From: Candidatus Thorarchaeota archaeon
GTDB lineage: Archaea > Asgardarchaeota > Thorarchaeia > Thorarchaeales > Thorarchaeaceae
Length of the DNA: 56,894 nucleotides
Reading direction: 5' to 3'
Assembly (NCBI GenBank): GCA_016839245.1
Contig: JAEOUN010000046.1
Coordinates: 1-56,894, forward strand
Each line of letters opens with the position of its first letter. The stretch's first letter is position 1. The notes beneath the pieces were generated by a model. That model was given only the letters and a program-made list of their open reading frames with translations. It was not told where the DNA came from and did not search any database. A program made the position numbers and the translations under genes. Below are positions 16,377-27,547 of this stretch, piece by piece.

Positions 16377-17980
16377 AGTTTCTTTGAGAGATATGGACCT
16401 TTATTGGTAAAGCCAAGCCCACGATAATACTCTTTGACACCAATACCACTATTGACCAAAATCTGGGTAGCATCAAATTCAGATTTGGCAATGTCCTCAG
16501 CAGCAACCAACATCTTTTCACCTAGCCCGAGATGCTGCCAAGCGTCCTCATCTCTCTTGCCAATATCGACAACGGGACCATATACACGCAGTTCTCGAAT
16601 GAGGAGAGAAGGATGTTCTATTATTTCAGGTCGATAGGCATCAACACTTGGGTACCGAAGTCGAATGAATCCAAAGAGTACATCAAGATGAGGATCTTCA
16701 AAGGAGAGAAATATTTCTGTGCCATTAGCAGCCTCATAATCACGTCGTATTAGTTGAATGTCATCAAGATTGATATGCTCATCAGATCTCATTTGAAAAT
16801 GACCGACCTCTCTGAATCGAATAGTAGGATTTCTCAATCCCTGTTCCTTCATCCGCCCCTGAACGAGCTCCCTGAGATTTCCCTGATTTAATCCAGCTTC
16901 TATTTGATGGAGTGGTATATCCCGCTGCATTCTCTGGATACGAACGTATTCAGGCATGGCGCTGACCGCAGTCGATACAACTGAAACGATTTGTTCATTC
17001 GTGAAGGGAGTATATGTTCCAGCTACCCACCAATCGTAGAGCTTAGTATTTTTCACTACAAGAGTCGGATAGATTTTCAACATATCAGGTCGAAATCTTG
17101 GATCAGAGAAGAGCTGTCTGAAGGTTTCAATATCGTGTTCAGGTGTTATTCCAGGAAGTCCCGGCATCATATGATAACACACTTTGAGACCGCTGTCACG
17201 TAGGAGCTTGGTCGCATTGACCGTAGCATCAACTCCATGACCACGCTGAACAGTTTCCAGTATTTCATCAGAAAGCGTCTGTACCCCAATCTCGACTCGC
17301 GTAGCACCCATCTTGAGAATGGCATCGATACTCTCTTTTGTGATCCAATCAGGGCGGGTTTCAAATGTCAATCCTACATTTCGAATAGAAGCGGTTTCAT
17401 TCCTTTTCATTGATTGTTCTAAGGTTTCACTGATACTTCCATTCATAGCATCAAGACAGCCTTTTACGAAAAACTGTTGATATTCCCCAGGTTTCGAACA
17501 CCAATCTCCACCCATGATTATCAGCTCAACCTTGTTCACACTGTGTCCAATGGTCTTCAGTTGAGTAAGTCTACTGTCTACTTGACGATATGGATCAAAG
17601 TCATTCTGAATACCTCTCATCGTAGCAGGCTCATACCCAGTATAACTCTGAGGAACACCTAAGTCTGGACCACCTGGACAATAAGCGCACTTTCCATGAG
17701 GACATTTGTGAGGTTCCGTCATGGCAGCAACTACAGCAACGCCCGAAATCGTTCGCACAGGTCGTTTCTGAAGAAAAGGTCGTAGAATCTCTTCCTCCTC
17801 AGGAATTGTGACTTGAAAGAGATCGGCATTTGAGGGAGGTCGGGAACAGCGATATTTTGCGCATACTTTATTCTTTATTCGATTGATAGTCCTTCGGCTA
17901 AGCTGTTCATTTGATGAGAGAAGTTCTTCAACTATCTCTCTGTATACTGCATAGTCATCAGGACCGGTCATATAATACAC
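16373..17980 (-). CDS. elp3: Elp3, tRNA uridine(34) acetyltransferase
   Basis: Radical SAM plus GNAT enzyme that makes carboxymethyl-type side chains at wobble uridine 34 of tRNAs. 535 residues, standard for the archaeal form. The Fe-S motif is CPHGKCAYC (C93, C98, C101; C-x4-C-x2-C), followed by CPGG. The LIIMGGDWCS and VGLTFETRPDW segments belong to the radical SAM core, and the C-terminal GNAT half has FIRLRYPS, RELRVYGPV and GLGEKMLVAAEDIA (acetyl-CoA loop). Translation may begin at ATG 17980 or three codons later. Monocistronic; Elp3 in archaea acts without the other Elongator subunits. Confidence 0.96.
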   Translation of the reverse strand: MYYMTGPDDYAVYREIVEELLSSNEQLSRRTINRIKNKVCAKYRCSRPPSNADLFQVTIPEEEEILRPFLQKRPVRTISGVAVVAAMTEPHKCPHGKCAYCPGGPDLGVPQSYTGYEPATMRGIQNDFDPYRQVDSRLTQLKTIGHSVNKVELIIMGGDWCSKPGEYQQFFVKGCLDAMNGSISETLEQSMKRNETASIRNVGLTFETRPDWITKESIDAILKMGATRVEIGVQTLSDEILETVQRGHGVDATVNATKLLRDSGLKVCYHMMPGLPGITPEHDIETFRQLFSDPRFRPDMLKIYPTLVVKNTKLYDWWVAGTYTPFTNEQIVSVVSTAVSAMPEYVRIQRMQRDIPLHQIEAGLNQGNLRELVQGRMKEQGLRNPTIRFREVGHFQMRSDEHINLDDIQLIRRDYEAANGTEIFLSFEDPHLDVLFGFIRLRYPSVDAYRPEIIEHPSLLIRELRVYGPVVDIGKRDEDAWQHLGLGEKMLVAAEDIAKSEFDATQILVNSGIGVKEYYRGLGFTNKGPYLSKKL

Positions 17981-18040
17981 AGAGTAAATGATTCTGTTTA
18001 ATAGAATATGGTGTGGACAGGGATGTCGTAAATATGAGAA

Positions 18041-18616
18041 CTAATTTTCAGGAGGAAAAATCACGTCGTCTATTATTGAATTCTCAGAGGAAGAACCATC
18101 AAGAACTGCAGGTAACCTGCCGATGAAGACTGTTTCAATTCCAAAACGTCTACATGTATCTTCCAAGGTTGAAATAGCGACTTTTGTCCATCCAGTCACA
18201 TCAATCTCACCAGGAACTGCGGCATCGCGAACCATGATACTAAACGCTTTTACATGCTCTGCTGTCAGTATTCTCGCAACACAGTTTAGAACAACGCGAC
18301 GATCCGAACTTATCGAACGTGCATAGACGAGGATGAGACTATCAACAATCTCAGAAGTGCCAATAGCAGTCATAGTATTTAGTCCAGTGAGCCATTCCTC
18401 ATAATCATCGGACTTGAGAAGATTCTCACAATAATCCATCAAATCGGGATCTTTGCGACGAGCTAGCTCTAGAAGAGCGGGTCTCCTGAGAACGAGATGT
18501 ACATTCTCATCATGAATTAAATCCCACAGCCGCGAACTATCAACGTCCACGTGCAGGGGGGTATGGTCTTCGAAAGAGAGGGACCTTGATAGTAGCCGCA
18601 GCTGTGAGTGGGTCAT
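18041..18616 (-). CDS. Helical-repeat protein of unknown function
   Basis: A 191-residue protein without recognised motif. Residues about 30-150 read as successive amphipathic helices with HEAT-like spacing (VHLVLRRPALLELARRKDPD, EEWLTGLNTMTAIGTSEIVD, VVLNCVARILTAEHVKAF). The C-terminal part (WTKVAISTLEDTCRRFGIET) is mixed. The reading frame ends about 60 bases before elp3, so co-transcription is likely. Its 5' side forms the left flank of the IS607-like composite element, starting within about 50 bases. Confidence 0.5.
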   Translation of the reverse strand: MTHSQLRLLSRSLSFEDHTPLHVDVDSSRLWDLIHDENVHLVLRRPALLELARRKDPDLMDYCENLLKSDDYEEWLTGLNTMTAIGTSEIVDSLILVYARSISSDRRVVLNCVARILTAEHVKAFSIMVRDAAVPGEIDVTGWTKVAISTLEDTCRRFGIETVFIGRLPAVLDGSSSENSIIDDVIFPPEN

Positions 18617-18663
18617 GAATGTGAGTGTTGGTTCAGATATTTAAGGTCATTAAATAATATGAG

Positions 18664-19080
18664 ATGTCTTTTACGAGTATGGATAGTCGGCATCTCCAGA
18701 AAGCCAAGAGTGACTCAGACAGTGAATTTAAGATATTCATTATTCATTGCAGGCAGCACTGTAAGACGCGATCCTTGATATTCACTGATATCGGTTCAGG
18801 CCTAAACATGAAGCGGCGTGACTTGCAACGGCTCCTGAGCTTTGCACAGAGAGGAGTCATCGAGACCCTGTTCATCACCCACAGGGATAGATTAGCTCGC
18901 TTTGGGGTTGACCTGCTACAGCGTATATTTCAGGACTGTAGCATCAGACTCATAGTTCTCATGGAGGAGGAAGAGAGAACGCTACAGAAGGAACTGGTCA
19001 CTGATATGATGGTCCTCATCCCTTCCTTCTCTGGACGCGTTTACGGACTCAGAGCTGCCTCTCTCTCAAGGCACAATAGC
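18664..19080 (+). pseudogene. tnpA: Decayed IS607-family serine recombinase (TnpA)
   Basis: The middle and C-terminal parts of an IS607 TnpA are recognisable: FTDIGSGLNMKRRDLQRLLS, then THRDRLARFGVDLLQRIF, then VLMEEEERTLQKELVTDMMV and SFSGRVYGLRAA. The N-terminal MerR-like DNA-binding domain is missing. Where intact proteins read Y-A-R-V-S-S-R-x-Q this one reads FTSMDSRHL, so the catalytic serine appears to be Asp. The family stop codon is also lost and the frame runs on to 19245 as meaningless antisense of the neighbouring gene. It is therefore a non-functional remnant. Confidence 0.75.
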
Positions 19081-19084
19081 CCTA

Positions 19085-22000
19085 TCATTTACGCTCTAGA
19101 AGACTTCGGATCATCTCTGGAATCTGCTGTTTCATTACATCATCCAAATTCGAGACCTCGCCCAGCTCTCCAACAACTTCACGCTCAAAGATTTCCTGCA
19201 TCTCGCGGATTGCTTCTCGTATTCCCACACCCGGGAGTGCTCTAGGGTCGTAGTATATCGCTCCTCTCTTATGTTCCTCTGACCCGCTTACTTCCGCCTT
19301 CCAGAGGATGGACTGCATGCCATCATCAAGAGTAAGGGTCACCTCATATTCCACAGGTTCCTCAGCATCCCATTCGACCTCCTGAATATGTTCAAGCACC
19401 CAGAAAAACAGGTGCTCCATGAAGTGCTCCACATTTCTGATATTGTAGGCACTTGCATCTCCCTCAGTGAGTCCAGTTGTAATCTCCTCCATAATTGCGT
19501 CAATACAACCTTCTCCAGCCTCAATACCAAAAGACTCCAAAGGCGTTCTCTGACTGTTCTCAGTGAGGAAGATACCATATCGAAACACCTCGTCGGACTG
19601 CTCGATGACCCTGAGTTCACATGCCGGACTGTTCTTCGAGTAGCCTCTATCCTTGAGTCCCATTATGATATGCTCCTCCAGTTCTGAGTACTCATGGATC
19701 TGTGCTGGTGGGATTTGGGAGGTGATGATGTTCAGAAGACGGTTACATTCCTCCTGAGCACTACGTCCATGGACAAGTTCCACAGTCTGATTATGTCCCT
19801 TGAAGGAGAGGCTTGAAACCGTTGATTCAGCTTGCCACTTGAAGTGTCTACCATCCCATCCGATGGAGATTATCCACTCTTGGTCGGGGACGTGTAAGAA
19901 CGTACCAGGTGGCAGCTTCTTGAAACGTAGTCCCTTACTACGAAAGAACATTCGGATATATCGTTCCTCGTGGAAGACAATGCTCTCATCCTTTTCAGAT
20001 ACTATAGGGGGTGTAAACTCAAAAGTGTAGAGTCGCCCTGTAAAGAGCCTTCCCGGGGCAAGGAGACCGTTTACTTCTTCTCCAGTCAGAGGCCTATCCA
20101 ATTGTTTCCTGACTCGAGTTGGACAATTGGAGGGTAGTTCGATTCTCCAGCAGGCCTCATGGTCCATACCTGTACCTGAAACAATAGGACAGACTGAGGC
20201 ATCATGAGATAGGCTGACGGAGAGAGATTTCACCTCATCAAAGAACTGGGACACTCTTTTGGGAAGTTCAACAGGAGTCTTTCGCGCAGCAGTATAGGTG
20301 ACATAGGGACGGATGAAGTCTAACTCTCCGTAGTCGATATCGTCAAAGATGCTCCACGTCACGTACTCTCCTGAATCAGTGAACATGGGACCTTCCTTGA
20401 CCGTGGGCCATCGTAAGAGTGCAATGAGGTCTGCGGTGTATTCAACAGGAATATCCTGCACCTCATTGTCTTCAGTATCTCTCAAGACTACGTGACATAG
20501 GTCATCCATCATCTCTAGATGAACACTGACAGGCGTAGGACTAGAGATGGAGGTGAAGTATCTTCTCAGGGTTTCCAAAGCTCTCTTGTAGAATGACTCT
20601 GATGGTCGTATACTCAGGGAAGGACTCTTTGCTGGCTCTTCTGTGACTGTTTGACGCACCGCTCGAAGGTGACCTGTGGTTGACCGACCTTGCCCTCTGA
20701 GTTCCAATGTCCCTGCAAAGAGTGTTGCCTCTCCATCAAGAGTACTCCATGTTTCCATTCCCTTCTCATTCTTCCTACCAATCAGTATTGTCTGTGGGAT
20801 ACCAAGAATCTCATCAAGAGTTTGTTGCGTTAGTACCTCGCGCCTATTCTCAGCCCAGAGGAATCCATCCTTATCAGGAGGTCTATCTGTGAAGCAGCCT
20901 GCAAGCAACCTTGAAGGATGGTCTGGATCTTGGACTACCATCCACCAAGACTGAATGTCATCATTCTCACTCTCAAATTTGACACCGAACAGCCACTCCT
21001 GATCAAGCTCTTCTCTACTATCAACAGCCTGTACTTCTCTTGTAGAAAGAGGCTGAGGGATTGTCTGAAGAGGTTGGGTCTGTAGTTTGTGCGGAGAACG
21101 GTAGAGACGTTGTGAGTTAATCTTACCGATGGTCATCTCTTGATACGATGAAGCATCTATTGTCTTTGGAAGCCTGAACCTCACCAGATCAAGTACACTA
21201 GGAGGTCTACATGGTGAACTAGGAAGAATAGTCGAAGTGATATCTAGTGGTTCATCTCCTCCATGATGTTGTTTACCTAGGAGAGTTATTTGTTCTTCAA
21301 GGGTCTCTGGGTAACCTTCGACAAGTCTTTCTTGAGGCCAGAGCTGCACCAACCATGGGATTATAGTCAGAGAGAGAAGCTTCAGACGGTCTCTTACTGT
21401 CTTCTCAGGAACTATGTCATCCAGTTCTTGTTCTCGAATTATTTTTCCACTCCCTTTGTTCCTGAACCGCTTCGACCATCCTCTCAAGAAGGGGACATGA
21501 GCCAGTTTTATACTGATATCAGTTGGACTATGACGGACAATGACTCTGATATCATCGTGCATGGGGGCATCACCAATTGTTGAGAGTCCCCACCTCTCTG
21601 GTTGTACTGCGCTCCTTGATGCAACTGGCAGATTCCAGATGATCTCTGTTACCATATCTCCGAGGGGAGAGGTCTCATAGAATGGAAGGAGTGCTCTGGT
21701 CGAGTACGACACAGACTTCTCTATTGAGGGCACGGGAGAGTCGAACCACACCACCATGGTCTTTTCATCATCGGGAAGACTACTCAGTAGATGATCTATA
21801 AGAAGAGAGAAACGATCCTGATAAGACATTGGAGTTGCATTACGGATGGTGTCTACTCCAGTGACGACAATCACTTGCCTCTTCTGTTTTGTATCCAAAA
21901 TAAATGACGGTAGACCACCGTCATTAAAGAGGAAGGTGAAACTCTCATCAAGGTAGCCTTGTACTTTGATTTCTTCAAAGAATAGTCTAGTATGGTCAGC

Positions 22001-24052
22001 GTGCACCTTTGCTAGTTCTTCTTCTGCATATCCTCTTGGTCTTAATCGAAGGCGTGCCTCTGCAAGATGTGGCTCATTGAATTGACTTGCTAGATCAATC
22101 CAGTGAAATTCAGCATTCTCATGTTTCTTTTTGATCTCATAGAGCATCTGAAGCCCGTGATAGTATCGTGCATTCCACGCAGCAGATTGTCCTGCAGAGG
22201 TTGGCGAATGTCCTGCAAGGTAGAGGATGAACTCTCTCTTTGACTTCTTCTTGGTCTTGAAGGGAGTATAGGTTGGATTCCATGGAACTTTAGTTTTCTC
22301 AACATCCTGCAAGTTTTGACTTGGTTGACTGTCAATAACTAGTGCAATCCGACCATTATCACATTTATCGGGTGTGAAGAAAGTACGTCTTACCTTGTGT
22401 ACTTTATGCTTCACCGACTCGTATCCCTTGATGATTAGTGGTTCCAGTATTCCGCGTATTTTAGAGATATCCGAAGAGGACTCTATAATCACAACTCCTC
22501 TCAAAATATGCCTCAGTTCCTGTTGCGTTGCCTCCTTGTAACTCTCACTCAGTGCTTGACAGTATATGTCCAGTTGTTTTCGAGCAGAAAGGGTTGGCGT
22601 TGAATTTACAATCATATCCCACATGTCCTCACTGAGAGGGTGGTCGCTGAGAGGAAAATTAGAGACCACCCGTTGTAAGGAACTCCCTTCAGGTCTGACT
22701 TCCGATTCCTTATAGTTCGCATCTATATAGAGACTCTGTCCTAACCTCGTCTTGATCTCAAGGGCAAAGACAGGTTCCCAGAAGGCATGTTTTCCATCAT
22801 CGCTAATAGTTCTCTTGCAGAGTATAAGATCTATCTTACCTAATCCATGAGCTGTCCGAATCGGTACTTCTGAGATGATGATATAGTCAGAGTGGCGAGC
22901 ATATCTGTCCCCGGATATAATAACATCCTTGATGTGCCAGGGGCTGAGAAACATATCTGAAATTCTACGGTGCATAATCGAGCCAGCAACTCGTGCTCTC
23001 TTTGCAACTTCGTTTCTGATATAATCCACATCATTCACTGTGAATATATTATCATCATCATCTCTCTTTGAATCATCCACCTCACGCTTTTCCTCTTTAT
23101 CATCTCCAAGATCTCCTCTCAACCTACTCAGCTCTTTGACTGCAACATGATCTCCATAGAACTCTCTTGCCTCTTCCTCTATTCTCTTGAATAAAGTTTC
23201 ATTCTCTTGCTGGATCTTGTCTCTATCGTCATCGAACTCAAGTTCTTTTGTCACTGTCCGTTTTTCGCACATGGTTGGCAGATAGCCATCTCTACGGATC
23301 AACTCCTTGATCTGTCGGAGTGCCCAGTTCACACCCTTCTGGAAATTCTTCTTTCCACACTCAGACTCGGAGTAGAGATACTCAAGATAGGGACGTACTA
23401 ATAGATAGAAGAGCTGGCAGTATCTGGTGGTTTCCTTTACAGGAACATTGTGAATGGCACAGAAAGTGGCGAGGTACTCGTTATGAGTACGAACTGCATC
23501 ACCAAAGTCTAATGACGGTAAGTCTGGATGTGCTAAGATAACCTTTGGACCAAAAGATGATCCATTGTATCCTGCACGCCTATACTTTTTGATCCCCTTT
23601 CCATCTCTTCTGGTATAGGTTCCAAAATCTACTGGAGTGGAAAACTGGAAATCAACCTCTGAGTTCTCTCTCACAATTGCTCCGCATGCATTCAATCGTT
23701 GGTTTAATGGGTCAACTGTATCATTGGAATTTTTCTGTCTGTTGACCTCAGTGAAACCATATTTGACTGCCTGCTCATAGAACATCTGTCGTGCATCTGT
23801 ACGAGTAGGCGCTTCTGCCATACTGATGTATGAGAAGTCAGGTTTCCCTCTCTCCTTTGTCAGCTGATAGACCTGTTGCCTGATGACAAATCGCTCACGT
23901 GATCTTTCATAGTATTTCTTCGTAGCCTTGTTGCTGATGTTCCGTTGAAGTTCAATGGTTGCTGAGAGCCCTGCTTTCACAGCTCTGGATATTATTCTCT
24001 CTGGATGTACTGGCATTGGTCTAACAGGTCGTCCTCGTAAGCGGGTCATCAC
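19085..24052 (-). CDS. 1655-residue protein with a PD-(D/E)XK nuclease motif and an ATPase-like middle region
   Basis: An intact 1655-codon gene with no family I can name. Residues about 1-340 are charged and helical and end in an acidic linker (DDDDNIF, 331-337). Residues about 380-445 carry a restriction-endonuclease-fold motif: E395 in IISEVPI, D408 in GKIDLIL and E432-I-K434 in FALEIKTRLG, the D-x(n)-E-x-K pattern of PD-(D/E)XK nucleases. Residues about 605-825 alternate strands and helices (FILYLAGHSPTSAGQSAAWN, RQVIVVTGVDTI, EKTMVVWFDSP) and resemble a P-loop ATPase whose Walker A Lys/Ser are missing. The last 800 residues are long beta-rich repeats. It is read away from tnpB, from a shared AT-rich promoter gap, and ends against tnpA. 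Roles in RNA-guided defence or transposon maintenance are possible but not shown. Confidence 0.75.
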   Translation of the reverse strand: MMTRLRGRPVRPMPVHPERIISRAVKAGLSATIELQRNISNKATKKYYERSRERFVIRQQVYQLTKERGKPDFSYISMAEAPTRTDARQMFYEQAVKYGFTEVNRQKNSNDTVDPLNQRLNACGAIVRENSEVDFQFSTPVDFGTYTRRDGKGIKKYRRAGYNGSSFGPKVILAHPDLPSLDFGDAVRTHNEYLATFCAIHNVPVKETTRYCQLFYLLVRPYLEYLYSESECGKKNFQKGVNWALRQIKELIRRDGYLPTMCEKRTVTKELEFDDDRDKIQQENETLFKRIEEEAREFYGDHVAVKELSRLRGDLGDDKEEKREVDDSKRDDDDNIFTVNDVDYIRNEVAKRARVAGSIMHRRISDMFLSPWHIKDVIISGDRYARHSDYIIISEVPIRTAHGLGKIDLILCKRTISDDGKHAFWEPVFALEIKTRLGQSLYIDANYKESEVRPEGSSLQRVVSNFPLSDHPLSEDMWDMIVNSTPTLSARKQLDIYCQALSESYKEATQQELRHILRGVVIIESSSDISKIRGILEPLIIKGYESVKHKVHKVRRTFFTPDKCDNGRIALVIDSQPSQNLQDVEKTKVPWNPTYTPFKTKKKSKREFILYLAGHSPTSAGQSAAWNARYYHGLQMLYEIKKKHENAEFHWIDLASQFNEPHLAEARLRLRPRGYAEEELAKVHADHTRLFFEEIKVQGYLDESFTFLFNDGGLPSFILDTKQKRQVIVVTGVDTIRNATPMSYQDRFSLLIDHLLSSLPDDEKTMVVWFDSPVPSIEKSVSYSTRALLPFYETSPLGDMVTEIIWNLPVASRSAVQPERWGLSTIGDAPMHDDIRVIVRHSPTDISIKLAHVPFLRGWSKRFRNKGSGKIIREQELDDIVPEKTVRDRLKLLSLTIIPWLVQLWPQERLVEGYPETLEEQITLLGKQHHGGDEPLDITSTILPSSPCRPPSVLDLVRFRLPKTIDASSYQEMTIGKINSQRLYRSPHKLQTQPLQTIPQPLSTREVQAVDSREELDQEWLFGVKFESENDDIQSWWMVVQDPDHPSRLLAGCFTDRPPDKDGFLWAENRREVLTQQTLDEILGIPQTILIGRKNEKGMETWSTLDGEATLFAGTLELRGQGRSTTGHLRAVRQTVTEEPAKSPSLSIRPSESFYKRALETLRRYFTSISSPTPVSVHLEMMDDLCHVVLRDTEDNEVQDIPVEYTADLIALLRWPTVKEGPMFTDSGEYVTWSIFDDIDYGELDFIRPYVTYTAARKTPVELPKRVSQFFDEVKSLSVSLSHDASVCPIVSGTGMDHEACWRIELPSNCPTRVRKQLDRPLTGEEVNGLLAPGRLFTGRLYTFEFTPPIVSEKDESIVFHEERYIRMFFRSKGLRFKKLPPGTFLHVPDQEWIISIGWDGRHFKWQAESTVSSLSFKGHNQTVELVHGRSAQEECNRLLNIITSQIPPAQIHEYSELEEHIIMGLKDRGYSKNSPACELRVIEQSDEVFRYGIFLTENSQRTPLESFGIEAGEGCIDAIMEEITTGLTEGDASAYNIRNVEHFMEHLFFWVLEHIQEVEWDAEEPVEYEVTLTLDDGMQSILWKAEVSGSEEHKRGAIYYDPRALPGVGIREAIREMQEIFEREVVGELGEVSNLDDVMKQQIPEMIRSLLERK

Positions 24053-24189
24053 ATCATCATATTATTCACACTCCTATTTATCTTTGTATTTTACGGGTCA
24101 ATATTTTATTGTGTATTTTGTAAATTGAATTTATTCTTTATAATATTCAGATATTGAATATCAAATATTCATCTAAATTTTAACACTGG

Positions 24190-24204
24190 TAACCAACGTT
24201 GCCC
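24190..24204 (+). repeat. TAACCAACGTTGCCC motif, copy 1
   Basis: Fifteen-base motif just before the palindrome and TATA box of tnpB. It recurs with a single difference (TAACCAACGTTACCC) at 24339-24353 in the same orientation, 149 bases further on, early in the tnpB frame. Possible protein-binding or guide-related repeat. Confidence 0.4.
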
Positions 24205-24219
24205 ATACGAAGTATGGGC
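24201..24219. promoter_or_regulatory. Palindrome next to the tnpB TATA box, possible operator
   Basis: GCCCATAC-GAA-GTATGGGC: two perfect eight-base arms with a three-base centre. It occupies the BRE position, directly abutting the TATA box at 24220, a place where a bound repressor would block TFB/TBP. The gap 24053-24252 is otherwise over 70 percent A+T and must also hold the promoter of the divergent 1655-residue gene. Confidence 0.55.
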
Positions 24220-24227
24220 TTATATAT
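24220..24227 (+). promoter_or_regulatory. TATA box of tnpB
   Basis: TTATATAT lies 26 bases before the first in-frame ATG of tnpB (24253), so the transcript would start at or next to that codon and be leaderless, which is common in archaea. Confidence 0.55.
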
Positions 24228-24252
24228 CTAGATTAGAACATCACCTTGGTGA

Positions 24253-26376
24253 ATGTTGATGAAGAAAGATTCGCGGCGTCATCCCCGCGTGCAAACAGTC
24301 TCTACTTCTGTAAGACCTGAGCATATAACAATGGATGATAACCAACGTTACCCTTCATCAACACTTCTAGTTCAAAAATTCTCTCTTAATTCATATCACA
24401 GAATTGTATCGCGAGAAGGACATCATAGAACACCATTGACCTCTATTGTTCCATCAGATATACTTCGTAAACTCAGTGGTCGAAAATGTAACACCCTTGA
24501 TTTCGAAGTTTTATCTCTAAATTTTGATAATTTTAGGAAAGCTGTAAATTTGATACTTGAGAGAGTGTTCTCAGATTCATCCTATGCTCAATTTTTAGGT
24601 CGTGAAATAGAGAAGAGTAATGGTATGACCTATCTTGTCTTTCGGAGAGAGAATAGTCTAAAATGGAAAATAGATAATGAGTTTGGAAGACTGGTATATG
24701 AAAGACTACATCGTAACGCTCTTGAAACCGCAGCTCGTATAATCTACAGCCAGTATTCACGACGCAGACTCACCATGTCACTTCTAGACATTTTAGATTC
24801 TAACGAACAACTACTCCTGCGACTTATGACTAATAGAAGAATTCCCTCTGATCTTGCTCGCAAGACACAGGAAACTATTGAGAAGAAGTCTAGAGGTTCC
24901 TACCATTATGCTCTCTCAATATGCAGGCAAGTGAGGAGTGTATTAGAAAAAGAGGTCTACAAAACGAATCCTCTGAAAGAAGGTGAGCGAAGAAAGAGTG
25001 TTCGTGAACTACTAAAGAAAGGATCTCCTGATAAGGCACGGACTGAAACTCTAATCGTCGATAAGGTTAAGGAGTGGACACAGAATGGATTTCCCTTCAT
25101 CACTCCAACCTTCCAAAAGAACATTGTAGATTTTTCAGCTTCTACAGAGAATACTACTGGTCAGGGATATTGGTTTGAAGTGGATCCCGAACGAGATAAT
25201 GAGGTCATTCTCTACATTAAGACACCTCCTGGAATAGTAGGACATGAACTTGATACCTCTTCTCCATACAAGAGCCAGACTGTGCGATTGCGGTTCTTAA
25301 ACTGGTTTCCAAGAAAAGCTGAGAGATCTAAGAGAAAGGCACAGGCAGCAAGAGCACAGGGTCATATCCAGCGAGCTATTCAGCTTGAGTATCGGGCATC
25401 TCAGTTCGATGACATGAGTAGACAATTGATGAACACTATCAGGCTACAGCAGTTCACTCGTGAGCTTGCTAGGGAGCAAGCGCAATCTGAGAAAGACGAA
25501 GTTCGAATAAATGACCTGAAGAAGATAATCCACGAGTTGAAAAAGAGTAGACGTTCAGCACCGCCACTCATTAAGATAGAAGGAACTAGAGTATCTCTAC
25601 ATATTCCCTTCATGGCTCCAGATGAGAAATTGCTCAAAGCAACATTACGAGGAGTTTCTGCAATGAAGAGAAAAGCTGGTATTGATAGAGGCCTTAGACA
25701 TTCTATGGTAGTATCTATCAAAAATGGAGATGATTCTTATGAGGAAACCTTGATAGGAAAACAGGAACTATACGAGAGGCGGGAAAGACTCAGAAAAAAG
25801 ACACGAGTCTTGATGTCAGAAGTGGCACTAAAGCGGAACAACTGGGAGAAGAAGCATTCTAAGCAGCAGCCTCCAGCCATCCTTCTAAAGAAGGGAAGAG
25901 AGCTGGAGTCCGTATGGATTAAGATTCGTCGTTTAGATATGGAAATCTCTCATCAAGTAGCCGCTGAAACCGTCTGGTTCTGTGAGCAGCATGGCGTGAA
26001 GACCATCTACTTTGAAGACCTCCGTTCCTTTCAGGGAAAAGGAGGAATGGGAAGGCACAGCTGGAACCTCTCTACAAATCTATGGGGAATGATGATCGAG
26101 GGAGTCCACTACAGGCGAGAGGCTCTTGGTCACAGGAATGGTGGGATCTGGCTGGTAAATCCCGCATGGACCTCTCAGACTTGTCATGTCTGTGGAGAGC
26201 GCGGAGTCCGAGTCGAGAATACTATCTCTACATCTGAGAAAAAAGGAGGTGAATACTTCTACTGCTCAAGGTGCGATAGGCACTATCACGCTGATGTCAA
26301 TGCTGCACGGAACATTATGGATGTTCAACAACCTCTAGAGTCCACTGCCGTTGGTGGGCGGGCTGCTTCGACCTAG
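24253..26376 (+). CDS. tnpB: Giant TnpB-type RuvC nuclease
   Basis: RNA-guided DNA endonuclease family (IS605/IS607 TnpB, ancestor of Cas12 and Fanzor). All three RuvC residues are present: D478 in AGIDRGLRHS, E588 in IYFEDLRSF and D681 in HADVNAARNI. The inserted zinc finger is C644-x2-C647 and C671-x2-C674. At 707 residues it is much longer than typical TnpB (about 350-450). The excess is N-terminal: about 470 residues precede RuvC-I, including a basic coiled-coil-like stretch at 352-435. ATG 24253 follows the TATA box by 26 bases; ATG 24331 (residue 27) is an alternative start. The guide RNA in this family comes from the 3' end of the gene and the element's right end. Codons and catalytic residues look intact, so it is likely active. 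Confidence 0.93.
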   Translation: MLMKKDSRRHPRVQTVSTSVRPEHITMDDNQRYPSSTLLVQKFSLNSYHRIVSREGHHRTPLTSIVPSDILRKLSGRKCNTLDFEVLSLNFDNFRKAVNLILERVFSDSSYAQFLGREIEKSNGMTYLVFRRENSLKWKIDNEFGRLVYERLHRNALETAARIIYSQYSRRRLTMSLLDILDSNEQLLLRLMTNRRIPSDLARKTQETIEKKSRGSYHYALSICRQVRSVLEKEVYKTNPLKEGERRKSVRELLKKGSPDKARTETLIVDKVKEWTQNGFPFITPTFQKNIVDFSASTENTTGQGYWFEVDPERDNEVILYIKTPPGIVGHELDTSSPYKSQTVRLRFLNWFPRKAERSKRKAQAARAQGHIQRAIQLEYRASQFDDMSRQLMNTIRLQQFTRELAREQAQSEKDEVRINDLKKIIHELKKSRRSAPPLIKIEGTRVSLHIPFMAPDEKLLKATLRGVSAMKRKAGIDRGLRHSMVVSIKNGDDSYEETLIGKQELYERRERLRKKTRVLMSEVALKRNNWEKKHSKQQPPAILLKKGRELESVWIKIRRLDMEISHQVAAETVWFCEQHGVKTIYFEDLRSFQGKGGMGRHSWNLSTNLWGMMIEGVHYRREALGHRNGGIWLVNPAWTSQTCHVCGERGVRVENTISTSEKKGGEYFYCSRCDRHYHADVNAARNIMDVQQPLESTAVGGRAAST

Positions 26377-26404
26377 TGTCCAAGTTTGCCCATTTAACAA
26401 TCAA

Positions 26405-26429
26405 CGGTCATGTATTGCGGTATTGACCG
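26405..26429 (+). ncRNA. Hairpin downstream of tnpB, candidate part of the guide (omega/re) RNA
   Basis: CGGTCA (26405-26410) and TGACCG (26424-26429) form a six-base stem around a 13-base loop, about 30 bases after the tnpB stop. In TnpB systems the guide RNA scaffold spans the tnpB 3' end and the right element end, with the guide immediately outside, so this position is right. No expression or covariance evidence is available, and the hairpin could instead belong to the eS30 promoter region. Confidence 0.3.
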
Positions 26430-26547
26430 GTGTTATTAAGGTCGTCAGACTTTTTCAAGTTAAAAAAAGACAATAAAATACGGTGTCAATTGGATACCTT
26501 TTTATGACAACTTTTCAAAATTATATCTAGTCAAAGGTGAAGATTAG

Positions 26548-26709
26548 ATGCCAGGTTCACATGGTTCACTAACAAAGGCAGGAAAAGTCCGTGAGTCCAC
26601 ACCAAAAGTGAAAGGACGCGAGAGACATACTCCAATCCCTCGTATTAGAAATAAGAGGAACTATGTAAAGAGATATGTCAGAGGACAGATCATTGGAGTA
26701 AGAAAATAA
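26548..26709 (+). CDS. rps30e: Ribosomal protein eS30
   Basis: Small-subunit protein shared by eukaryotes and some archaea. The 53-residue product MPGSHGSLTKAGKVRESTPK... continues with a KGRERHTPIPRIRNKRNYVK stretch and ends RGQIIGVRK, the eS30 core (H-G-S-L-x-R/K-A-G-K-V-R at the N-terminus, K-x-x-P-R-x-x-N-R/K at the end). There is no ubiquitin-like fusion. It is too short for a usual ORF cut-off but complete from ATG to TAA. Standing alone between the mobile element and pyrK, it has its own AT-rich promoter region. Confidence 0.93.
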   Translation: MPGSHGSLTKAGKVRESTPKVKGRERHTPIPRIRNKRNYVKRYVRGQIIGVRK

Positions 26710-26725
26710 TCATCTTTCTTTAGAT

Positions 26726-27547
26726 TCAAAACGATTTCTTTATTCCCACCGCGTCCCGGTGATATTTTCCAAAATCAGTAAGTTTTGAGAGTTGAACTCC
26801 AGTAAAGACAGGACCATCATGACAGACAAGATACCCCGTGGGATCAATAGCGCAGGTACCACAGATGCCACATCCACATTTCATAAATCGTTCAAGAGAA
26901 GCTTGAATAGGAATTCTATGATTCACTGCTAATTTGTGAAGAGTAGCCATCATGAGTTCAGGACCACAGGTATACATCATATCAAAATCATGAGTAGTAA
27001 GGAGTTGCTCAGCAGCGTCAGTTGCTAGACCTTTGTATCCTAGGCTGCCATCATCTGTAGCAATTTCAAGATTGAAGTTTGATGATGTATTGATGGAAAA
27101 CTCGTTGTGATAGAGTAGTTCATCTTTTGTCTTAGCGGCTATCAAGAGTGTAACCTCTACGTCTTTCTTAAGTAGAGTATAGACTAGCGGTCTCAGAGGT
27201 GCCATTCCTACACCACCTCCAATTACTAAAGCCTTCTTTGGAATACTATTGAAGAATGTACCAAATGGACCTCGAATTCCAATCCAGTCACGAGGTGCCA
27301 GCGAACATAATCTACTGGTAGCCTCACCTATTGGTGAAACTGTTATTGCAATCGATGAAGCATCCTGCTCTGAGATGCTCATGGGAATTTCATCAACTTC
27401 AGGAATCCATACCATGAGAAATTGTCCCGGCTGAAATTCTGTCAGAGTTTCAGAGGTAAATTTCAGAGTTCGTATCGATGGAGTTTCTTGGATTATTTCA
27501 GAGATTCTCACAGAGTGTGGATTGCCCATCAAATGTTCCGTGTTCAT
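26726..27547 (-). CDS. pyrK: Dihydroorotate dehydrogenase electron-transfer subunit
   Basis: FAD and [2Fe-2S] subunit that passes electrons from dihydroorotate dehydrogenase to NAD in pyrimidine synthesis. 273 residues. FAD-binding segment QPGQFLMVWIPEVDE is followed by PIGEATSRL, the NAD-binding part has VIGGGVGMAPLRPLV, and the C-terminal cluster ligands are CGCGICGTC...C. The ATG overlaps the pyrD stop (ATGA), the normal coupling of the type 1B enzyme pair. Confidence 0.94.
   Translation of the reverse strand: MNTEHLMGNPHSVRISEIIQETPSIRTLKFTSETLTEFQPGQFLMVWIPEVDEIPMSISEQDASSIAITVSPIGEATSRLCSLAPRDWIGIRGPFGTFFNSIPKKALVIGGGVGMAPLRPLVYTLLKKDVEVTLLIAAKTKDELLYHNEFSINTSSNFNLEIATDDGSLGYKGLATDAAEQLLTTHDFDMMYTCGPELMMATLHKLAVNHRIPIQASLERFMKCGCGICGTCAIDPTGYLVCHDGPVFTGVQLSKLTDFGKYHRDAVGIKKSF

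Follow-up and report, generated by a model that had tools for sequence, protein, structure and literature searches.

Two large divergent genes have stayed intact beside a broken recombinase in a Thorarchaeal genome, which raises the question of whether they serve the cell or belong to something that moves. The locus lies in a stretch of 56,894 nucleotides of contig JAEOUN010000046.1 from a Candidatus Thorarchaeota archaeon (hereafter the window). One gene (19085..24052, minus strand) encodes a protein of 1655 residues, here called the giant, and the other (24253..26376, plus strand) a TnpB-type RuvC nuclease of 707 residues. A preliminary description of this DNA had placed both in an inactivated IS607 element and had proposed that they are kept for a cellular role. 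We find that in Thorarchaeota, a group of Asgard archaea, TnpB and the giant recur as a divergent pair in a mobile element, and that the window holds a truncated copy of this transposon.

The two frames are open and share a 200-bp intergenic region (24053..24252), the spacing of which is alike in relatives, so that the earlier reading of the locus as two intact large divergent genes is confirmed. They are real genes and no chance frames, because both have database relatives, 52 for the giant and 285 for TnpB besides the proteins themselves. The span first given for the element, 18650-26430, was nearly exact, the right boundary being found at 26407.

A scan with one genome per species yielded 12 loci, and in locus L001 tblastn shows the same order as in the window, with the recombinase facing the giant and TnpB diverging from the latter. 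In the taxonomic class of L001, 30 of 47 genomes contain a giant at an E-value of 1e-60 or better. We retrieved 80 of the 88 listed giant loci and examined their neighbours. Counting was confined to the 65 giants, window included, for which the N-terminus and at least 1 kb of upstream sequence were present; in 56 cases, a divergent TnpB lies less than 600 bp away, in the same orientation and at similar spacing. Three of the nine giants outside this 600-bp rule have a TnpB at about 1.1 kb with an extra gene in between. The intervening gene encodes about 230-260 residues (L100:9486-10163, L105:9604-10386, L097:2059-2751), and its L100 and L097 copies have no Pfam match. The other six (L111, L113, L116, L119, L130 and L138) apparently form a subgroup of giants of about 1430 residues with a different layout, which in L111 and L113 is another arrangement of the same parts. 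A Rad51-family gene lies 3' of the giant on the same strand in both of these loci (L111:2137-3135, minus strand, PF08423, E 5e-23; L113:11065-12075, plus strand, PF08423, E 5e-21), and in L113 an intact recombinase precedes the giant.

With respect to distribution, 13 of the 14 labelled giant relatives are from Thorarchaeota and one is from Hermodarchaeota, and the organism labels among the 120 TnpB relatives inspected (of 285) are Thorarchaeota. In a sample of the phylum, which we take to be the Asgard archaea, 36 of 195 genomes contain a giant, all of them except G122 and G194 being also in the class sample of 47. As matched by eye, 23 of the 52 giant relatives apparently share a genome with a TnpB relative among the matches listed. 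One protein of 498 residues (P0179) reads as the beginning of a giant continued by the last part of a TnpB, which may reflect a deletion within an element or sequences joined in assembly.

A working link between the two proteins is best supported by the exchange of TnpB partners at the same position. The divergent TnpBs fall into two clades, T1, to which the window's protein belongs, and T2; by clade profile, 17 partners match only T1, 35 only T2 and 4 both, the latter with T2 far better. When partner type is mapped onto a quick tree of 57 giants, 8 changes are required, and supported branches force at least 7 of them. TnpB has thus been replaced repeatedly at the same place, and the giant is therefore the constant part of the element. 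The converse association is weaker. Among 20 further T1 TnpBs, 14 had at least 1 kb of upstream sequence, and 11 of these 14 have no divergent giant. A divergent giant (L296, already known from the phylum sample) or its remnant (L280, L284) accompanies three, and a same-strand giant piece another three. In four (L282, L283, L291, L294), which have no divergent giant, part of a recombinase gene precedes tnpB on the same strand, the ordinary IS607 order, and the remaining four show none of these neighbours. The proposal that the two genes co-occur and stay divergent is thus borne out from the side of the giant, which is rarely without TnpB, but not from that of the T1 TnpBs, which do occur without a divergent giant.

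That the family moves is indicated by its recombinases, its ends and its empty sites. What remains in the window of an IS607-type serine recombinase (TnpA; 18664..19098, plus strand) is the C-terminal portion of its catalytic domain, identified by alignments and by a match to the IS607 transposase model NF033518 (E 9e-29) that begins only at profile position 81. The helix-turn-helix (HTH) and the YARVS serine motif, both present in five relatives, are missing, as is the left end, which is common to seven relatives and starts at GG ahead of the recombinase. The recombinase of this copy is accordingly broken, as had been supposed. Intact IS607 recombinases, with an N-terminal HTH and the catalytic serine, are encoded in L064, L080, L113, L129 and L137. 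At the other side, T1 right ends are conserved through AACGG and diverge thereafter; GG terminates 14 of the 16 covered T1 right ends, that of the window among them, and T2 right ends differ.

The genes flanking the window's element are adjacent, leaving an empty site, in 8 of 30 loci examined around the neighbouring gene; these eight were aligned, the remaining loci being too short or otherwise arranged. The alignment places the insertion point at TGGG^TCATG, at the start of a host gene of 191 residues (18041..18616, minus strand, also called as an open reading frame). About 45-55 bp of target sequence are present on both sides of the element, on the left as the start and upstream region of the 191-residue gene (18610..18664) and on the right as an imperfect direct repeat (26406..26450), and the gene therefore regains a start. 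Downstream of the insertion, the empty-site alignment places a host gene of 53 residues (26548..26709, plus strand), which is presumably that of ribosomal protein eS30. Because relatives have intact recombinases, one genome contains 34 giant matches (copies and pieces together) and empty sites exist, the family is mobile. These same observations speak against the idea that the pair, being unable to move, is kept for a cellular role.

Imperfect target duplications of about 50-80 bp, exceeding the usual target-site duplication, flank some copies, such as that of the window (18610-18664 and 26406-26450) and, on both flanks, L135. In L134, 13 bp of the left end recur past the right end, possibly reflecting a second copy or a circle joint. 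In L088, the two flanks of a decayed T1 copy, at 1496 nt past its giant piece and 172 nt past its TnpB piece, share three exact repeats (43, 21 and 17 bp) that follow one another in the same order and by eye resemble a tRNA gene.

A recombinase was not found in every branch of the family. With at least 1 kb present on the relevant side, a recombinase or a piece of it was found in 5 of 10 T1 loci as compared to 0 of 30 T2 loci. For the T2 element in L107, loci were returned from 14 other genomes, 10 of which have the flanking genes separated by about 300 bp, the other four showing a longer gap (two) or being cut off (two). Only about 170 bp past the giant stop belong to this element, and L107 therefore consists of just the giant and TnpB. 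An additional convergent gene is present in some other T2 loci. In seven loci, convergent genes of 205-236 residues, related to one another, replace the recombinase beside giants of about 1415-1456 residues (L069:11167-11793, L075:6326-6940, L076:6240-6947, L077:11222-11929, L081:6262-6921, L089:6205-6906, L043:4653-5279); the L077 copy has no Pfam match.

Some copies of both branches lie near tRNA genes. Within 200 nt after the tnpB stop, a width chosen after the cases had been seen, a tRNA gene is present in 6 of 44 loci (three T1, three T2; 0.145 expected), in all six with its 3' end towards the element. Exact flanking repeats of 16, 17 and 22 bp were observed at the right ends of L084, L109 and L135, the longest among 127 mismatched pairs being 13 bp; repeats stand above the null in 3 of 20 loci. 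Terminal inverted repeats, another casposon feature, were not established. For casposases, the available text of PMC6977970 describes duplications of 14-15 bp and a preference for tRNA 3' ends. In L084, an entire tRNA-like sequence lies beside the giant stop and a 20-nt piece of it directly after the right end, which looks as though the guide had been copied from this tRNA.

What the giant might contribute can be approached from its predicted folds, since profile searches gave no recurring family match. Giants of this family have about 1400-1960 residues, and three folds are predicted: Cas1-like, RecB/Cas4-type nuclease and RecA-like. Residues 13-250 (23303..24016, minus strand) are predicted to form a Cas1-like domain, in which E80, N117, H175, D182, D185 and R188 are conserved among giants; the residues of Cas1 type, which are candidates for catalysis, are nearly invariant. 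The Pfam Cas1 profile has no match in 23 plus 25 giants, so that the relation to Cas1 lies below detection by hidden Markov models (HMM). For residues 335-560 (22373..23050, minus strand), a PD-(D/E)XK nuclease domain is predicted from the motif set and the strand order. Across 74 aligned rows, E395 is kept in 73, D408 and K434 in all 74, and position 432 is E in 58 and D in 16; H361, Q493 and Y497 are each kept in 74. The set H361, E395, D408, E432-x-K434 and Q493xxxY497 is that of RecB/Cas4-type nucleases, and the helix-strand-strand-strand-helix-strand order is present in the model, with insertions. A Cas4 profile gives a weak signal limited to the stretch around QxxxY. No cysteine in this region is conserved among the aligned giants, and a Cas4-type iron-sulphur cluster is therefore not expected. 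Residues 604-905 (21338..22243, minus strand) resemble the RecA/Rad51 fold in the predicted structure, but a Walker A motif occurs in 0 of 74 aligned rows, which makes ATP hydrolysis unlikely. The C-terminal part (residues 931-1655; 19088..21262, minus strand) was modelled with a pLDDT of 88 and a pTM of 0.65 and has no clear fold match. The nuclease motif at E395/D408/E432-x-K434 is thus conserved as first described, and the predicted Cas1-like domain had been overlooked; the 'ATPase-like middle' agrees with the predicted fold and is probably wrong as to the activity.

The window's TnpB has the hallmarks of TnpB/OMEGA nucleases, i.e. the RuvC D-E-D triad and a zinc ribbon. It matches PF07282 (E 1.4e-12) and, below the cut-off of that profile, NF040570 (E 2.9e-19), and the triad D478/E588/D681 is kept in 19 of 19 aligned rows. 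T2 TnpBs span about 545-670 residues, measured from stop to stop, and 37 of 41 match the Pfam TNB domain. At the place of the canonical RuvC-II glutamate they have G (40 of 40), and E416, six residues ahead of the first zinc cysteine, is kept in all 38 with a residue there. Such an alternative arrangement of the RuvC-II glutamate is that of Fanzor-related TnpBs in the available text of PMC10711439.

A guide RNA near the 3' side of TnpB had also been proposed, and the right end indeed shows covariation. The T2 right end adopts the shape of a three-way junction in which 17 of 20 pairs vary on both sides and 91% of cells pair; compared to 500 shuffles, four of five measures beat all, and the fifth was reached by 14 shuffles. 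For the T1 right end, the predicted structure comprises 10 pairs, and changes on both sides are seen in 6 of them. In the window, the conservation stop and the covarying hairpin delimit a predicted scaffold (26340..26407, plus strand) that overlaps the tnpB 3' end and has AACGG as its last bases. The right end is thus predicted to yield the guide RNA of TnpB, with the first bases of the right flank (26408..26428, plus strand) as the putative guide. These 21 nt show 3 mismatches to the empty site in L151 and more to other empty sites; a guide from there could therefore recognise uninserted DNA.

On this basis, we propose that the giant is the DNA integrase and end-processing enzyme of the element and that TnpB, with the right-end RNA, cuts the empty site, a reading to which we give slightly less than an even chance. 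The Cas1-like domain would join the element ends to target DNA, the RecB/Cas4-type nuclease would trim these ends, and the RecA-like domain would hold DNA without hydrolysing ATP. TnpB would act as a factor for retention and spread by cutting DNA that lacks the element. In the IS607-type branch, including the window, the serine recombinase would probably cut and join with assistance from the giant; where no recombinase was found, the giant would act by itself. More tentatively, the element may represent a new class of transposon. Its transposase would be a Cas1-type integrase of about 1400-1960 residues that also contains a RecB/Cas4-type nuclease and a RecA-like fold for holding DNA, and its RNA-guided TnpB would be exchangeable and would clear or mark the target site.

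In the main rival account, the giant helps in repair: after RNA-guided cutting of the empty site by TnpB, it would process the break and help the element to be copied by homologous recombination, as in homing or a gene drive. It would then not be an integrase. Here, the Cas1-like domain would act as a branched-DNA nuclease beside the RecB-type nuclease and the Rad51-like fold. This account, which we regard as possible though somewhat doubtful, is consistent with the resection-type nuclease motifs and Rad51-like fold of the giant, with the Rad51-family gene beside it in both scanned loci of the 1430-residue subgroup, and with giants being nearly always near TnpB whereas TnpBs can be without a giant; the long imperfect target duplications might have been left behind by repair. 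However, spread to unrelated sites requires an integrase, for which L107 offers no other candidate, and the Cas1-type residues are nearly invariant.

It is less likely that the giant is cargo of an IS607 transposon with a job unrelated to movement, for example in defending the host or in protecting the element from its competitors. The intact recombinases and GG ends among T1 relatives would fit such a passenger, as would the four further T1 TnpBs in ordinary IS607 order. Yet a recombinase was found in none of the 30 T2 loci, one of them bounded by empty sites, and cargo is normally variable, whereas the giant gene is the constant part. Moreover, the giant matched 0 PADLOC defence families. 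Domestication of the pair as an immobilised two-nuclease module with a cellular role appears very improbable: both frames are intact although the recombinase of this copy is broken, but the family is multi-copy and mobile, and the orthologous site is empty in all 8 alignable relatives. Chance adjacency or shared hitchhiking of functionally unlinked genes, for which the commonness of TnpB genes in these genomes might speak, is scarcely credible in view of the shared orientation and similar spacing in 56 of 65 cases and the repeated replacement in place.

The proposed integrase-TnpB element resembles several known systems without coinciding with any. It shares with the IS607 family the recombinase (a remnant in the window, intact in relatives), GG right ends and a TnpB with a right-end RNA, but it differs in that a divergent 5-kb gene is the constant part and no recombinase was found in the T2 branch. 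Casposons have in common with it the predicted Cas1-like fold with conserved candidate catalytic residues, Cas4-like nucleases in some members (according to the available text of PMC6452270), and tRNA-end targets with target duplications (available text of PMC6977970). In contrast, L107, with giant and TnpB only, leaves no space for a B-family polymerase, the relation to Cas1 is beneath HMM detection, the partner is TnpB, and the protein has about 1400-1960 residues. Type V CRISPR-Cas systems with a Cas1/Cas4 adaptation module likewise place a Cas12-related nuclease beside Cas1-like and Cas4-type domains, but the guide here would derive from the insertion flank; no CRISPR array was found in 17500-27500, and no search was made for Cas2. 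The aloposons of Heimdallarchaeum are also Asgard transposons with giant genes and tRNA-gene integration, but their Otus/Ephialtes proteins have 3000-6000 residues and a ParA-like ATPase, and TnpB and serine recombinase do not occur in the available text of PMC8813620. With Cas4/RecB nucleases the giant shares the H, D, ExK and QxxxY motifs, but unlike in Cas4, with its four iron-sulphur cysteines, no cysteine is conserved in residues 335-560, and the profile match is confined to the QxxxY stretch. Among the matches listed by searches of open papers, no element pairing TnpB with such a giant was found, which is not proof of its being unpublished.

CRISPR-Cas systems are thought to have taken the Cas1 integrase from casposons and the type V effectors from TnpB transposons, which are distinct classes of element. 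In the available texts of PMC12669027 and PMC6452270, TnpB transposons are treated as a separate source of CRISPR parts, in the latter alongside casposons. If our proposal is true, relatives of the Cas1-type integrase and of Cas12 effectors are coupled in one Asgard mobile unit, independently of CRISPR arrays, and relatives of two likely CRISPR ancestors cooperate inside one element. A Cas1-fold integrase, a Cas4-like nuclease and TnpB as a recurrent unit would show such coupling outside CRISPR and give a testable natural model, and the giant might serve as a large integrase that comes with an RNA-guided partner. For the archaea themselves, the giants point to a large uncharacterised Asgard protein superfamily, of which a single genome can have as many as 34 matches when copies and pieces are counted together.
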